This document shows positions 4,529 to 11,357 of a DNA stretch of 23,511 bases, piece by piece. Made by a program: the position numbers and the translations under genes. Under the pieces are notes generated by a model that had not been told where the DNA came from, made no database searches, and saw only the letters and a program-made list of their open reading frames with translations. How positions within the stretch are numbered: position 1 is the first letter of the stretch; every line of letters starts with the position of its first letter. This DNA comes from a virus: positions 1-23,511 of the IMG/VR virus record IMGVR_UViG_3300032246_001668; one strand, written 5' to 3'.

Positions 4529-7202
4529 TTTTGAAAGTAGAAATTACTTCCTAAGAGATGATGAAACAGGTTGGACCAAATTTCAGTACAGTCCTTTTTT
4601 TTACAAAATAGATAAGAATGGAGACTTTATGACCTTAGATGGATTTAAAGTATCTGCTACAAAAAAATACGATAAAGAGAATCCAAATTTATATGAGAAG
4701 GATATTGATAAAGAACTTCTTATACTTCGTGATTTGTACTATCAGACAGATGACTTGCCAAAGTCACATAATATAGTTTATTTAGATATTGAGATTGAGA
4801 TTGGTGGTACATTAACACCACAATATGTCAAAGATACCCCTACTAAGCTGACAGCAATTGCATTAATAGATAATAACTCAAAACAAAAGATATGTTTTAT
4901 TCTTGATGAGGAAGGTCAAATTAGTGATATTAATGTTGAGGGAAAAGAAATCATAACTTGTTCTAGTGAGGTTGATCTTATAAATAAATTTATTAAAAAA
5001 TGGAAAGAATTAGATCCAACTATTGTTGTAGGATATAACTCTGACTTCTTTGATATCCCATATCTATATTATAGAATAAAAAATATTTTAGGATGTGATA
5101 TTGCCAATCAACTTAGTCCTATTGGAAAAATAAAAGAAAGTCCATGGAAAACAGATTCCCCTATTACTATAGGTGGTGTTTCTTCTTTAGATTACATGTT
5201 ACTTCATAAGAAGTTTATTGTAAAGGAAGAGCCATCATATAAGCTAAATGCAATTGGTCTTAAGTATGCCAATTTAGGAAAGATTGAAGATAATAGAAGT
5301 CTTGATAGATTATTTAAAGAAGATGTTAATAAGTTTATTGACTATAATATTCGAGATGTTGAAATCATTGTAGCTTTAGAAGATAATCTTCAGTTTATTG
5401 CATTGACAGTATTAATATGTCATTTATGCCATACTCCTTATGAAATGATTTATTTTAATACTTTGCTTAATGAAGGGGCAATATTAACTTATCTTAAAAG
5501 GAAAGGAATCATTCCAAATAATAAACCTCATACAATCAATCGTTTTATTAAAGATTTTATAGTTGGTGATTATGTTAAGGTAGGAGATACAACGGAAGGT
5601 ATATTAGTTAGCCATGAAGATAAAGAATGTGGAGTACAACTTAAATCAGGAATAGTAAAATATTATAGTGAATCTATTGTAAAAAAATATGATCCTTCTG
5701 CTGGAGGTTACTTAAAAGATCCTGTTCCAGGATTATATGAAGATTTGTCTGACCTTGACTTTACATCACTATACCCGAGTATTATTAAGATGCTTAATGC
5801 TGGTTTAGAAACTTGTATTGGAAGAATTCAAACAAAAGATAATTACGAACAAAACAATACATTAGAAGAATTAAAACAAAAAGATCAATCTATTCAAGTA
5901 GTTGTAGAGAAATTAGACAGAAAAACTTATAAATTAAAAGAGGCAAGATTAAGTATTGGTGAACTTGTAAAATTTATTGAAGATAACGGTATTACTATAG
6001 GTGCATCAGGTGCAATGTTCTCAACTCATAAGAAAAGTATTGCTTGTGAAGTATTAGAAGATTGGTTTGACAAACGTGAGTATTATCGTGGTTTGATGAA
6101 GAAAGCTGGTAAGGAAGGTGATAAGGTTGGAGCTAAGTTATATAAGAACTACCAACAAGCATTTAAAATTCTTCAGAATGCTATGTATGGAACTTTTGGT
6201 GTTAATACATGGAGATTTGCTGATGGATATAAGATGATATCATCGGCTATAACAAATACAGGTCAAAGACTTACTATGGGATCAATTGACTATGTTAATG
6301 AAATAATAAATAAAGAATTAGGAACAGATAAGGATTATATTGTGGCATCTGATACTGATTCGCTTTATATTGAAATTAATCCATTACTTAAAAAAAGATT
6401 CCCAAAAGTTACTGATAGAAATGAAAGAATTGAAAAAATTATTGCCATATCTCAAGAAATTCAAGAAAGGGCTAATCAACAACTTAATAATCCAATTAAA
6501 AAATATTTTAATGCGAAAGAGAATAAATACCTTACACTTAAACAAGAAGTTGTAGTAGAACGTGCATATTGGGCAGGTAAGAGAAGATATGCGATGTGGG
6601 TAGTAAATGATCAAGGAGTTCCTAAAGATGAGTTTGATATCAAAGGATTAGATATTATGAAGAGTAATATGAATCCAATCTATAAAGAATTTGCAGAATC
6701 ATTCTTAAAAGACATCTTATTTGGAAAACAAAAAGTTGAAATGGATGAAAAATTAATTAACTTTAAAAAGACAGTTAAAACATTACCAATATCAAGCATA
6801 GCTAGACCAACAGGAGTAAATAAAGTAACTGAATATATTGAAAGAAAACCTACCGCAGGTTCTATATTTAGTACAATTGCAAAAGGAACTCCAATAAATA
6901 GTAGATCTGTAATATATTATAATGATTTAATTAAATTTAAAAAATTAGAAAAAAAACACTCTATGATCGTTAGAGGTGATAAAATAAAATTTATAGCTTT
7001 ATTAGATAATCCGTATAAAATTGACGTAATTGCTTTTACGGGAGAGGATCCAGATTTTATTAATGAGTTTATTGACAAATATGCTAATAGGGAGGAAGGT
7101 TTTAATACATCATTACTTAACAAGCTTACTGACTTATATTCAAATATCAAATGGGATTTTCCATCATTTAATGAGAACGTTGGTAAATTTTTTAAATTTT
7201 AG
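4506..7202 (+). CDS. 43: Family B DNA polymerase with 3'-5' exonuclease, T4 gp43-like
   Basis: The phage replicative DNA polymerase, 898 residues, the same length as T4 gp43. Exonuclease motifs: D94-x-E96 (YLDIEIE), NSDFFD with D183, and YNIRD with D284. Polymerase motifs: A, DFTSLYPSII with D418; B, KILQNAMYG with K554; C, SDTDS with D616 and D618. A KRRYAMW segment near residue 695 fits the KxY region. Between IPNNKPH (about 335) and GGYLKDPVPGLYE (about 400) sits an extra stretch of about 45 residues with small, SH3/KOW-like beta character (GDYVKVGDTTEG and following). The C-terminus ends GKFFKF, an aromatic tail suitable for binding the clamp encoded by the next gene. The chosen start overlaps the lysin gene by 23 bp; no later Met fits before the N-terminal domain. 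Confidence 0.95.
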   Translation: MFQAVHYDFESRNYFLRDDETGWTKFQYSPFFYKIDKNGDFMTLDGFKVSATKKYDKENPNLYEKDIDKELLILRDLYYQTDDLPKSHNIVYLDIEIEIGGTLTPQYVKDTPTKLTAIALIDNNSKQKICFILDEEGQISDINVEGKEIITCSSEVDLINKFIKKWKELDPTIVVGYNSDFFDIPYLYYRIKNILGCDIANQLSPIGKIKESPWKTDSPITIGGVSSLDYMLLHKKFIVKEEPSYKLNAIGLKYANLGKIEDNRSLDRLFKEDVNKFIDYNIRDVEIIVALEDNLQFIALTVLICHLCHTPYEMIYFNTLLNEGAILTYLKRKGIIPNNKPHTINRFIKDFIVGDYVKVGDTTEGILVSHEDKECGVQLKSGIVKYYSESIVKKYDPSAGGYLKDPVPGLYEDLSDLDFTSLYPSIIKMLNAGLETCIGRIQTKDNYEQNNTLEELKQKDQSIQVVVEKLDRKTYKLKEARLSIGELVKFIEDNGITIGASGAMFSTHKKSIACEVLEDWFDKREYYRGLMKKAGKEGDKVGAKLYKNYQQAFKILQNAMYGTFGVNTWRFADGYKMISSAITNTGQRLTMGSIDYVNEIINKELGTDKDYIVASDTDSLYIEINPLLKKRFPKVTDRNERIEKIIAISQEIQERANQQLNNPIKKYFNAKENKYLTLKQEVVVERAYWAGKRRYAMWVVNDQGVPKDEFDIKGLDIMKSNMNPIYKEFAESFLKDILFGKQKVEMDEKLINFKKTVKTLPISSIARPTGVNKVTEYIERKPTAGSIFSTIAKGTPINSRSVIYYNDLIKFKKLEKKHSMIVRGDKIKFIALLDNPYKIDVIAFTGEDPDFINEFIDKYANREEGFNTSLLNKLTDLYSNIKWDFPSFNENVGKFFKF

Positions 7203-7961: not shown

Positions 7962-8222
7962 ATGGTAAAAGTATTAAAGTTTAAAGCAGGATGGTGCGGA
8001 CCCTGTACTACATTGGCACCCATAATAAATGAAATTGTATCAGAAATAAATGGTATAATTTATCAAGAAGTAGATATAGACCAAGAGCCTATGCTAGCTA
8101 TTCAACATAAAGTCAGGAGCCTTCCTACCATTATTGTTGAAAAGGATGGTAAGGAAGTATCTAGAATTACAGGAATACAACCAAAAAATTTTTATATCGC
8201 AACAATTAAATCACATCTATAA
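7962..8222 (+). CDS. Thioredoxin-like protein
   Basis: An 86-residue minimal thioredoxin fold. The active site WCGPC is at residues 11-15 and the cis-proline at P55 (SLPTII). Other thioredoxin features are the VDID strand (37-40) and the late glycine in RITGIQ. It is shorter than E. coli thioredoxin (about 108) because it starts directly with the strand before the active site. Likely role: dithiol reductant, with the phage NrdA C-terminal cysteines as a plausible substrate; glutaredoxin-like use is also possible. It is the first gene of a unit with groES (3-bp gap) and groEL, directly after a strong promoter. Confidence 0.92.
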   Translation: MVKVLKFKAGWCGPCTTLAPIINEIVSEINGIIYQEVDIDQEPMLAIQHKVRSLPTIIVEKDGKEVSRITGIQPKNFYIATIKSHL

Positions 8223-8225
8223 GTT

Positions 8226-8519
8226 ATGTCTGAATTAAAAGCAGTTTTTGATTTTATTATCATTGAGCCAATCAAGGATAAAGAAGAAAGAAGAGGAGCA
8301 ATCGTAATTGCTGATATGGGTCAAGAAAGACCATTAAAAGGAAAAATCATTTCCGTTGGACCTGGCCGTTATAGTTTTACTGGAGAAATTCTACCAACTC
8401 AGCTAAAGGTTGGAGAAATTGTTATTATCCCAAAGATCGGACCAATTATTATAGAGCATAATGGAGTTCAATATTATAGTTGCCAAGAAGCAATTGTACA
8501 AGCAGTAATCACAGAATAA
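8226..8519 (+). CDS. groES: Co-chaperonin GroES, phage-encoded
   Basis: A 97-residue cpn10-family protein that would form the heptameric lid of the GroEL chamber. The mobile loop carries the hydrophobic tripeptide in RGAIVIAD (the GroEL-binding IVL equivalent). It is followed by GKIISVGPGR, VGEIVIIPKIGP and a C-terminal EAIVQAVITE strand, all in the normal order. This is full GroES architecture, rather than the unrelated fold of T4 gp31. It sits 12 bp upstream of groEL and shares its promoter. Because both partners are phage-encoded and adjacent, they most likely work as a matched pair, although mixing with host GroEL is possible. Confidence 0.93.
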   Translation: MSELKAVFDFIIIEPIKDKEERRGAIVIADMGQERPLKGKIISVGPGRYSFTGEILPTQLKVGEIVIIPKIGPIIIEHNGVQYYSCQEAIVQAVITE

Positions 8520-8531
8520 AGTTATATATAC

Positions 8532-10172
8532 ATGAATAAAGTTACATTAGGTAAAGAAGCAAAAGAAAAACTTTTAGCTGGTATTAATATTGTTGCAGAA
8601 GCAGTTACTACATCATTAGGGCCAAGTGGTAAAAATACAATCTTCAAAGATGAGTATGGAACCATCAAGAATACAAAAGATGGTGTAAGTATTTCTGATT
8701 CAATCAAGCAATTAGAGGATCCCGTAGAAGACTTTGGTGCACAGATTATTAAGCAGGCAGCAAAAAGAACTGTAAAGGAATGTGGTGATGGTACTACTAC
8801 AACAGTATTACTTACTCAAAGTATTGTTAAAAACGGATATCGTTTGATCATGAGTCATCATAATCCGGCTGCAGTTAAGAAAGGAATAGATAAAGCACTA
8901 AATGTTGTTATTAATGAATTAGAGTCTCAGTCAAAAAGCATAGAGACAAAAGATCAAATCAAACAAGTAGCAACAATCTCAGCTAATAACGATCCAGATA
9001 TTGGATTTTTAATTGCAGAAGCAATGGATAAGGTTGGTGTAGAAGGAATTGTTACGGTAGAGGAATCTCGTATTGGTGAAACATCTCTTGAAGTTGTAGA
9101 AGGTATTCAATTTAATCGTGGATTCCGTTCACTTTATTTTGTTACTGATAATAACAAGATGTCAGCAATATTGGATAAACCAAAGATCTTAATATATGAT
9201 GGTAAGATCACACAGGTTAAACCATTATTGGGCCTACTTGAGAGTCTTTCTAACGACAATCATTCGCTACTAGTTGTAGCTGAGGATATTGATGGAGAAG
9301 CGTTAGCTACTTTAGTAGTCAATAAGACTCGTGGTAGTCTTAAAGTAGCAGCTGTTAAAGCTCCTGAATATGGTGATCGTAGATTACAGTTTATGGAAGA
9401 CTTGGCAGTTATTACTGGAGGTACTGTTGTTACATCACAGAAAGGAATGCGTTTAGAGGAATTTGATTTAGATTGGTTAGGTGAGTGTCGTCTTGCAACA
9501 GTTCAGAAAGAAGTAACTACTATCGTAGATGGTAAAGGATCTGAAGAATCTATTGCACAACGAGCTATGCAAATTAAAAATCAAATTGATAGTTCGGACT
9601 CAGCCTATGAAACTGAAAAACTACAAGAACGTTTATCTAAGTTAGCAGGTGGTGTTGCAATTATTAGTATTGGTGGTGCATCTGACATTGAAATAAAAGA
9701 AAAGAAAGATCGTGCTGAAGATGCTCTACATGCTGCTAAATCTGCCATAGAAGATGGTGTATCTCCTGGTGGTGGTGTTGCTTTACTTAAGGCAAAAAAA
9801 GCTCTTAGATCAAAGAGGGTAGACCTAGAAACACAAGAAGAGATTATTGGATTTGATATTATTGAGCAAGCACTTGAATCTCCTATCATTAAGATTCTTT
9901 CTAATGCGGGATATACTGATTCAGAAATTTGGAAGATTCAGAATGATATTCAGTCAGGAGATCAATATTGGAATGGATATAATGTTAAAACATCCGAGTG
10001 GGTTGACTTATATCAAGATGGTGTCTTAGATCCAACTAAAACAATCAAGACAGCTTTGACGAATGCAGTATCTACTGCAGGTACAATCCTATTAACAGAT
10101 TGTATTATTACTGAAGATAAGAAGGAAGAACCTTCTATGAATATGAGTGGAATGGACTTTGGAGGAATGTAA
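8532..10172 (+). CDS. groEL: Chaperonin GroEL, phage-encoded
   Basis: A 546-residue group I chaperonin, essentially full length. ATPase residues are intact: KDGVS with D50, GDGTTT at 85-90 with D86, and EDALHAAK with D397 followed by GVSPGGG. Intermediate and apical segments are recognisable: VEEGI-type VVEGIQFNRGF at about 188-198, and an apical domain around residues 190-375. The C-terminus ends MNMSGMDFGGM, a much-reduced version of the host Gly-Gly-Met tail. The N-terminus begins MNKVTLGKEA. It would fold phage proteins too large or too specialised for the host chaperonin; the capsid or tail substrates are not visible here. Its last codons supply a GGAGG sequence that could serve as ribosome binding site for the next gene. 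Confidence 0.97.
   Translation: MNKVTLGKEAKEKLLAGINIVAEAVTTSLGPSGKNTIFKDEYGTIKNTKDGVSISDSIKQLEDPVEDFGAQIIKQAAKRTVKECGDGTTTTVLLTQSIVKNGYRLIMSHHNPAAVKKGIDKALNVVINELESQSKSIETKDQIKQVATISANNDPDIGFLIAEAMDKVGVEGIVTVEESRIGETSLEVVEGIQFNRGFRSLYFVTDNNKMSAILDKPKILIYDGKITQVKPLLGLLESLSNDNHSLLVVAEDIDGEALATLVVNKTRGSLKVAAVKAPEYGDRRLQFMEDLAVITGGTVVTSQKGMRLEEFDLDWLGECRLATVQKEVTTIVDGKGSEESIAQRAMQIKNQIDSSDSAYETEKLQERLSKLAGGVAIISIGGASDIEIKEKKDRAEDALHAAKSAIEDGVSPGGGVALLKAKKALRSKRVDLETQEEIIGFDIIEQALESPIIKILSNAGYTDSEIWKIQNDIQSGDQYWNGYNVKTSEWVDLYQDGVLDPTKTIKTALTNAVSTAGTILLTDCIITEDKKEEPSMNMSGMDFGGM
10161..10165 (+). promoter_or_regulatory. Shine-Dalgarno-like GGAGG within the groEL C-terminus
   Basis: GGAGG lies 8 nt before the ATG at 10174. 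It is one of the few strong Shine-Dalgarno matches in a window where most starts lack one. It arises from the GroEL Phe-Gly-Gly-Met codons, so it may be coincidental. Confidence 0.35.
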
Positions 10173-10517: not shown

Positions 10518-10721
10518 ATGATGTTACAATTAAATCCAACTATACCTATTATTAGATTATCAGATGGTATGAAAGGTTACGCATTTATTTGTATAGATTA
10601 TTCACAGGAACATGATTTATATTTTACTTGTGGTATGGATAATGGTCAAATTTGGGTATTAAATAATAAACATATAAGGCTTCAAAATAATATTACATTT
10701 GATAGAATTCAAAATAGTTAG
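10518..10721 (+). CDS. Small hypothetical phage protein
   Basis: A 67-residue protein, 2 bp after the previous stop. The core reads like two beta hairpins, with GYAFICIDYSQEHDLYF and NGQIWVLNNKHIRL, suggesting a small beta-rich fold. To my memory, the pattern G-G-AF-IDY-EH-L-W recurs in Bacteroidota phage hypotheticals; function is unknown. Its stop codon (10719-10721) lies within the 5' acceptor strand of the downstream tRNA-like gene, so gene and RNA overlap by 6 nt. Confidence 0.65.
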   Translation: MMLQLNPTIPIIRLSDGMKGYAFICIDYSQEHDLYFTCGMDNGQIWVLNNKHIRLQNNITFDRIQNS

Positions 10722-10867
10722 ATGGCGGAATTGGCCTACGCACCCGATTGTCTCTCGGGCGTGGATAAAGAAATAGATTGATAATATGGGAATGACCACC
10801 AGCATGCATGCGTTTATGTTATCAATCGAATCTCCACTTGATGGTTCGATCCCATCTCTAACTGCCA
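10716..10867 (+). tRNA. Type II tRNA-like gene, anticodon GUC, with giant variable arm
   Basis: Acceptor AGTTAGA (10716-10722) pairs with TCTAACT (10857-10863), followed by G73 and encoded CCA (10865-10867). D arm: GCG/CGC (10725-27/10739-41) with a GG-containing loop. Anticodon stem CCCGA/TCGGG (10743-47/10755-59) with loop TTGTCTC, anticodon GTC at 10750-10752 and an unusual T at position 37. T arm: GATGG-TTCGATC-CCATC (10840-10856). The variable arm has a perfect 5-bp stem GTGGA/TCCAC (10761-65/10833-37) enclosing 67 nt, which themselves contain a 9-bp hairpin GATTGATAA/TTATCAATC (10776-84/10819-27) and the palindrome GCATGCATGC (10802-11). The long arm, G73 and D-loop resemble Ser/Leu tRNAs, but the anticodon is that of Asp. 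The tRNA fold is strongly supported; identity and function are not. Confidence 0.7.
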
Positions 10868-10895
10868 TATCGTTAAAAGAAAAGATATTCACATT

Positions 10896-10915
10896 TATCG
10901 CAATAATAAGCGATA
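10896..10915 (+). other. Inter-tRNA hairpin
   Basis: TATCGC (10896-10901) and GCGATA (10910-10915) form a perfect 6-bp stem with an 8-nt A/T loop, between the two tRNA genes and 4 nt upstream of the second. No T-run follows, so it is not a classical terminator. A processing or spacer structure is possible. The rest of 10868-10919 shows nothing recognisable. Confidence 0.4.
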
Positions 10916-10919
10916 CTTA

Positions 10920-10991
10920 GGGCTTGTAGCTCAGCGGAAGAGCAAATGACTCATAATCATTAGGTCGGGATATCGTAATTCCCCGGGCCCA
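10920..10991 (+). tRNA. tRNA-Met(CAU) or tRNA-Ile(CAU), with degenerate T arm
   Basis: Acceptor GGGCTTG/CGGGCCC (10920-26/10984-90, two G-U pairs) with A73 and no encoded CCA. D arm GCTC/GAGC (10929-32/10940-43). Anticodon stem AATGA/TCATT with loop CTCATAA, anticodon CAT at 10952-10954. Variable loop of 5 nt. The T stem has 4 pairs and a T-T mismatch at 53:61, with loop ATCGTAA in place of the usual TTCRANY. A paired 1:72 end and a stem lacking three G-C pairs argue against an initiator tRNA. Elongator Met or lysidine-type Ile cannot be separated from sequence alone. Confidence 0.75.
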
Positions 10992-11009
10992 CAATAAATA
11001 AAATGTAAT

Positions 11010-11357
11010 ATGAACAAAATTAAAATTGGTAATTTTTGGATTTTTGGTGATGGGGTAGTTGGAATGACTATTTTCCCTTTTGTATTTCTTAAAAAATCAT
11101 ATGTTGATAGAATATCTAAAGAAACATTAAATAGAACAATTAATCACGAATCTATTCATTTGAAACAACAAGCAGAACTTTTGTGCATATTCTTTTACAT
11201 TTGGTATTTTGTTGAATTTTGTATTAGAGTAATTTTAATAGGTAATACAGATGCAGCTTATAGAAGGATTTGCTTCGAAAAAGAAGCTTATGATAATGAA
11301 CACAATCTAGAATACTTAAAGACTAGAAAACTTTGGTCTTTTCTTAAATATATTTAA
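11010..11357 (+). CDS. Small membrane protein with HExxH zinc-peptidase-like motif
   Basis: A 115-residue protein. HESIH at residues 46-50 matches the gluzincin HExxH zinc site. It is followed by KQQAELL, a hydrophobic segment at about 58-79 (likely membrane-spanning), and then FEKEAYDNE at 89-97, where a Glu could be the third zinc ligand. To my knowledge, proteins of this size with NHE-IH-KQQ-ELL and F-REAY-NE are common hypotheticals in Bacteroidota genomes, which supports a host-derived gene. Proteolytic activity is not established; a zinc-binding structural role is possible. It is the first gene after the tRNAs, with an A/T-rich leader and no Shine-Dalgarno sequence. Confidence 0.75.
   Translation: MNKIKIGNFWIFGDGVVGMTIFPFVFLKKSYVDRISKETLNRTINHESIHLKQQAELLCIFFYIWYFVEFCIRVILIGNTDAAYRRICFEKEAYDNEHNLEYLKTRKLWSFLKYI

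Follow-up and report, generated by a model that had tools for sequence, protein, structure and literature searches.

Positions 10716-10867 of a 23.5-kb phage fragment (the whole stretch of DNA analyzed, hereafter the window) encode an RNA that folds as a tRNA, presents an aspartate anticodon and carries a greatly enlarged variable arm, which raises the question of what such an RNA does. The initial annotation had offered several answers, among them a tRNA charged by SerRS that would read Asp codons as Ser, a non-translational tRNA mimic, and a decayed gene. The surrounding genes, some of them named by reading their translations, specify a T4-type replisome (PolB, clamp and clamp loader), ribonucleotide reductase, GroEL/GroES and many glycosyltransferases; a thioredoxin-like protein, GroES and GroEL, likewise read from translations, follow one another at 7962-10172.

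The canonical cloverleaf described in the initial annotation, with acceptor, D, anticodon and T arms and an encoded CCA, is confirmed in the sequence, as are the anticodon GUC, U37, G73, the variable-arm insert of ∼67 nt and a 10-nt palindrome. All features lie on the plus strand. The acceptor 5′ strand AGTTAGA (10716..10722) forms seven of seven pairs with TCTAACT (10857-10863), with A1-U72 at its end, and is followed by U8 and G9. The D arm (10725..10741) has a 3-bp stem, GCG/CGC, and G18G19. In the anticodon arm CCCGA-TTGTCTC-TCGGG (10743..10759), all five stem pairs of which covary in the family described below, GUC occupies positions 34-36 (10750..10752) and is followed by U37 and C38 (10753-10754). 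The whole variable arm spans 10761-10837. Its outer stem begins with GTGG (10761..10764), which pairs with 10834-10837; in the family these four pairs are 100% paired and three have changed on both sides. An internal loop, GAAAUA (10770..10775), identified as conserved by alignment, faces GAAUC (10828-10832) and leads into the inner stem P1 (10776..10787, partner 10816-10827), which also covaries in the family. This stem had been described as a perfect 9-bp helix; it is present and has 12 bp including one U-G pair. It is capped by the apex motif GGGAAUGACCAC (10788..10799), the GG...GACCAC pattern of which is found in nearly all phage members, and by the palindrome GCATGCATGC = GCAUGCAUGC (10802..10811). 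The T arm GATGG-TTCGATC-CCATC (10840..10856), a helix 99.3% paired across the family, and G73 with the encoded CCA (10864..10867) complete the molecule. A short open frame running through the insert was judged by eye to be the usual read-through of a T arm.

Upstream of the element, TACATTTG at 10694-10701 resembles a Bacteroidota -7 box. Downstream, a spacer (10869..10915) precedes a tRNA-Met(CAU) gene (10920..10992). The spacer is conserved in a sister phage, L023 (L023:6172-6220), in which the stretch before tRNA-Met is A+T-rich and contains two hairpins (z -4.7). A gene matching phrog_15610 (protease) lies at 11010-11357 of the window and is absent from this place in L023, where tRNA-Met is followed directly by the next gene. 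ARAGORN, a check proposed with the initial annotation, and Rfam both detect the tRNA-Met in the window and miss the element, for which Rfam 15 gives no match at E values up to 5; Rfam searches of the L023 element likewise give nothing above a family cut-off. The single-sequence folding energy of the window element is not significant (z -1.08).

The sole close relative found is L023 (contig IMGVR_UViG_3300032242_003284), the flanks of which are 98% and 93% identical to those of the window. The tRNA-like body between them has diverged widely, but the apex retains a stretch of 21 identical nt, and pairing in P1 is kept through three double changes and one change from G-C to G-U. Exact searches with 15- and 18-nt cores returned almost solely chance matches in coding sequence, a search with the spacer motif returned unrelated coding matches besides the contig of L023 itself, and two blastn searches with family members against 50,697 phage records returned no match. 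A covariance model of the insert alone, from which the anticodon loop was absent, recovered another five copies from distant phages, every one of them lying within the same tRNA-like body and showing GUC in its loop. A pattern based on the conserved spacing then matched 95 stretches of viral contigs, where roughly 7 were to be expected on our own estimate, and a final pattern in which both anticodon and apex were left free gave at least 120 matches; searches that placed no constraint on the anticodon also yielded GUC. One false positive was discarded, leaving at least 135 distinct phage elements from viral contigs. Each of 42 large carrier phage contigs holds exactly one strong copy (130-166 bits, next best at most 60 bits), and the elements are located in phage tRNA arrays. 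The carriers are uncultured large phages, some with a T4-type polymerase and others with no good match to one; the T4 genome itself has no match to the covariance model. The hosts of these phages we infer to be Bacteroidota. A second series of odd tRNA-like genes was seen in contig IMGVR_UViG_3300008262_000042 (L411:7728-7851, 8149-8294, 8435-8616 and 712-836; L412:4882-4980, 5260-5357 and 5539-5639), from a phage with a large tRNA set; its members share the acceptor AGTCAGG/CCTGACT, or close variants, and a T arm, and mostly lack a normal anticodon arm.

Comparison of the homologues shows strong covariation in all helices. In 28 diverse phage homologues 98.3% of cells pair and 27 of 31 pairs have changed on both sides; the covariation score is reached by none of 500 shuffles, and slid registers also score far below it. 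The family acceptor is 100% paired, with changes on both sides. The insert was found to be present and covarying in related phages rather than absent. The suggestion of a decayed gene does not survive these data, in that L023 and the other homologues retain both insert and cloverleaf through compensatory changes. Decay or a chance resemblance could draw on the unexceptional folding energy of the single sequence; the massive covariation and the existence of 135 phage and 45 chromosomal homologues refute it and leave it a negligible probability. The insert belongs to the best conserved portions of the molecule, which makes its excision as an intron unlikely, and it matches no known ribozyme, riboswitch or Rfam RNA. 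Conservation extends to the internal loop (GAAAUA/GAAUC) and the apex (GG...GACCAC); the search patterns had partly fixed both, although the last scan placed no constraint on the apex. In a sizeable minority of phage elements (e.g., L194, L202 and L255) the T stem seems to contain a bulged U.

In 124 of 134 phage members the apex contains a palindrome 8 nt long or longer, compared with 4 of 134 shuffled sequences. About 20 different palindromic sequences occur, and they are nearly always perfect. Most relatives have in addition an extra hairpin in the D-loop, often perfectly palindromic, such as GCGTACGC, GCTCTAGAGC and GATTGACACGCGTGTCAATC. A simple hairpin does not need a self-complementary centre, so that either two RNA molecules pair through it or a mutational process generates perfect palindromes; of the two, the pattern suggests a dimer. 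Pairing of the anticodon GUC with GAC of the apex was also considered and was not adopted: both are nearly invariant, so that no covariation signal is possible, and one element, L346, keeps its cloverleaf and GUC despite a wholly different variable-arm apex.

Which positions are conserved bears directly on function. G34, U35 and C36 are found in 135/135 phage elements, and C38 and G73 in 133/135 each. On a tree of the 135 elements built without the anticodon loop, positions 34-36 are free of change and positions 38 and 73 have two changes each, compared with 6 at 37, 12 at 33 and 17-24 for acceptor positions 4-6. Constraint on the acceptor end and G73-C74 is about equal to that on the loop. 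Position 33 is C in 63 elements, U in 59, A in 12 and G in 1, and position 37 is U in 122, C in 11 and A in 2. The U37 that had been remarked upon as anomalous in the window is therefore real, but it is, together with the lack of a strict U33, a trait of the family. Canonical tRNA-Asp genes, which several carrier phages also hold, have U33 and A37 in 17 of the 17 listed. The strong determinants of bacterial AspRS are G73, G34, U35, C36 and C38, a list from which 33 and 37 are absent (PMC9976931). The retention of AspRS determinants while 33 and 37, positions that matter to the ribosome, drift lends support to the earlier idea of a non-translational tRNA mimic, and we regard the element as almost certainly a conserved RNA that does not decode. 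On the same sequence grounds it is probably a substrate or ligand of AspRS. The AspRS preference for G1-C72 and G10 is not followed, the 1-72 pair being U-A (A-U in the clade of the window) and G10 merely frequent (93/135), and AspRS would have to tolerate the giant variable arm, as the model assumes. A class II synthetase of the D/K/N type is encoded by none of the 42 carrier phage contigs, so the charging enzyme would be that of the host.

The proposal that Asp codons are read as Ser finds no support, because SerRS does not read the anticodon and yet GUC and C38 are the most conserved part of the molecule. SerRS determinants are represented by the long arm, G73 and G2-C71; C72 is absent and C11 is found in 37/136. 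The more general possibility of an aspartate (or serine) tRNA that works in translation despite its unusual variable arm would account for the complete cloverleaf, the GUC anticodon and the conserved elbow bases and C74 (134/135). It is nevertheless very improbable, given the drift at 33 and 37, the giant insert in place of the short variable loop recognised by tRNA models, the canonical tRNA-Asp in several of the same phages, and the fact that most relatives do not encode CCA, although a host enzyme could add it.

The first base pair of the acceptor suggests a further step. U1-A72 is found in 132/135 phage elements and in 43/43 distinct chromosomal copies, and 132/135 phage elements have A two positions after G18G19; the canonical tRNA-Asp genes of the same phages have mostly G1-C72 and never U1-A72. 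U1-A72 confers amidation of aspartyl-tRNA by bacterial GatCAB, which G1-C72 and U20a prevent (PMC9976931; PMC4206432). Signatures for aspartate loading and for amidation are thus combined in one RNA, and we put the chance that it is a GatCAB substrate at about even. The window copy may differ: its clade (the window, L192 and L270) has A1-U72, which makes its amidation uncertain.

Homologues are not confined to phages. The full covariance model, applied to 395 sampled Bacteroidota genomes at E ≤ 1e-12, found elements of 110-196 nt in 40 of them, often as tandem pairs or triplets; the chromosomal set comprises 45 copies (43 distinct). Their helices covary, the anticodon loops of the copies listed read GUC except for one that reads CTTTCTC, and GGGAxAAA/GCTAAC stands at the position of the internal loop. 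None of the chromosomal copies tried, which for Rfam were the elements of nine loci, is detected by ARAGORN or Rfam. The family is a new, large and widespread group of tRNA-like RNAs, absent from Rfam, ARAGORN and the phage collections tried. In the open PMC literature we found neither such an RNA in phages or Bacteroidota nor a tRNA-like RNA in asparagine synthesis. A Bacteroidota-type promoter lies within 120 nt upstream of 17/45 chromosomal copies (0.34 expected); the -7 box is not enriched over shuffles before phage copies (6 seen, 6.3 expected).

In E. coli, asnC lies next to asnA and is transcribed divergently from it. The AsnC protein of this species activates asnA, which encodes an enzyme converting aspartate to asparagine, and asparagine abolishes the activation (PMC4482635). 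In 15 of 21 chromosomal regions of 12 kb the divergent neighbour of the element is an Lrp/AsnC protein of ∼155 aa, for which the best NCBIfam match is AsnC at about 160-180 bits, below the equivalog cut-off of 227 bits. No other gene recurs in more than 4 of the 21 regions and the flanks are otherwise not conserved; no AsnC gene was seen in the phages. A gene of ∼560 aa near the RNA in L448/L449, considered as an asparagine synthetase, proved to encode an AMP-binding enzyme of the acyl-CoA synthetase type. GatB is present in 40/40 carriers and 33/40 non-carriers, and AsnRS in 40/40 and 31/40, in sets that are phylogenetically unmatched, so that phylogeny confounds the comparison. AsnA is found in 3 carriers and 1 non-carrier, and AsnB with the size of the E. 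coli protein (gauged from hit pattern and frame length) solely in non-carriers, most of which lack GatB. Most carriers have longer AsnB-like proteins above the model cut-off, and six have neither AsnA nor an above-cut-off AsnB. Since AsnB-like proteins occur in most carriers, and AsnA in 3, the RNA is not their only possible source of asparagine.

The following mechanism is proposed. Host AspRS would recognise the RNA through G34-U35-C36, C38 and G73 and load it with aspartate, while the drifting positions 33 and 37 and the long variable arm would bar it from decoding. In most members U1-A72, without the antideterminants G1-C72 and U20a, would allow GatCAB to convert Asp-RNA to Asn-RNA, so that asparagine would be made or sensed on a dedicated RNA. 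Because the chromosomal gene lies divergent to an AsnC-like regulator, as asnA does in E. coli, its expression is probably induced by a shortage of asparagine; the position is observed and the regulation presumed. Two copies probably pair through the palindromic apex, an arrangement that, speculatively, would suit the dimeric AspRS or a transamidosome scaffold. The large phages, with one copy and no regulator, presumably steer the aspartate/asparagine economy of the host to their benefit. Judged from sequence, the reading as a non-decoding RNA that AspRS would charge with aspartate and that GatCAB would amidate in most members, serving to supply or sense asparagine, is as probable as all other readings together, and a role in asparagine metabolism as such falls somewhat short of an even chance. 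The fullest version, in which a ribosome-barred RNA cofactor carries asparagine made by AspRS and GatCAB, replaces asnA beside an AsnC-type neighbour, forms a palindrome-linked dimer or transamidosome scaffold, and was taken over by large Bacteroidota phages, is tentative, and it is rather unlikely that all of its parts hold jointly.

Alternatively, the RNA might be a decoy or regulator of AspRS that binds the enzyme, perhaps as a dimer, or is charged by it, titrating AspRS or signalling aspartate/asparagine status without amidation. The same conservation of anticodon and G73 would be expected, the palindromic apex suggests dimers, and an AsnC neighbour would still fit; left unexplained are the replacement of G1-C72 by U1-A72 and the presence of GatB in 40/40 carriers, and we consider this alternative unlikely while giving it real weight. 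A role in defence, the other main rival, is quite improbable: an RNA with an altered loop could escape, or occupy, a nuclease attacking tRNA-Asp or GUN anticodon loops, which agrees with the placement in phage tRNA arrays and with the evasion of tRNA-targeting defences by phage tRNAs described in PMC10264068 and PMC11555353. It leaves unexplained why chromosomal copies adjoin an AsnC-like gene and in many cases have promoters of their own, and why constraint on the acceptor end and G73-C74 is about that of the loop.

The proposed aspartylated and amidated RNA can be compared with several known systems. With bacterial tRNA-Asp(GUC) the element shares the anticodon, C38, G73, often G10, G2-C71 and the elbow bases; it differs in the insert of tens of nucleotides, a position 33 not fixed to U, a mostly pyrimidine 37, U1-A72 or A1-U72 instead of G1-C72, and in being missed by ARAGORN and Rfam. 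With the tRNA-Asn of tRNA-dependent asparagine synthesis (AspRS and GatCAB; PMC4206432) it shares the amidation determinant U1-A72, and loading with Asp followed by amidation would be expected; the same source cites the structure of an asparagine-forming tRNA-protein particle. The element, however, has an Asp anticodon, so that a discriminating AspRS could load it, is apparently barred from decoding, and has a gene of its own next to an AsnC-like regulator. Viral tRNA-like structures and synthetase-binding mRNA leaders similarly aim tRNA mimicry at a synthetase rather than the ribosome, whereas the element is a separate small RNA gene with a complete cloverleaf, found in phages and bacteria. 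Staphylococci have a non-translating tRNA-Gly for cell-wall synthesis that is charged and kept out of translation; a non-translational metabolic role, as proposed here, is common to both, and amino acid, anticodon and architecture differ. T4 species 1 RNA (rnaC) is likewise a stable RNA of a phage tRNA cluster with a T arm, but no common anticodon arm or apex motif is seen, and rnaC and rnaD were rejected as homologues in the absence of any covariance-model match in T4. Type II tRNA-Ser and tRNA-Leu share the long variable arm, a Leu-like D arm and, for tRNA-Ser, G73; in the element the conserved GUC and C38 would go unread by SerRS, and the SerRS determinants C72 and C11-G24 are mostly absent.

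Roughly a tenth of the Bacteroidota genomes sampled, together with many large phages, thus carry members of an abundant structured RNA family that is missing from the collections tried. Its identity elements join those for aspartate loading with those for asparagine amidation, while the decoding positions are released. It offers a testable case of a tRNA-shaped RNA that would serve metabolism rather than translation, and a concrete starting point for explaining the presence, in some phages, of tRNA-like genes that seem unable to decode.
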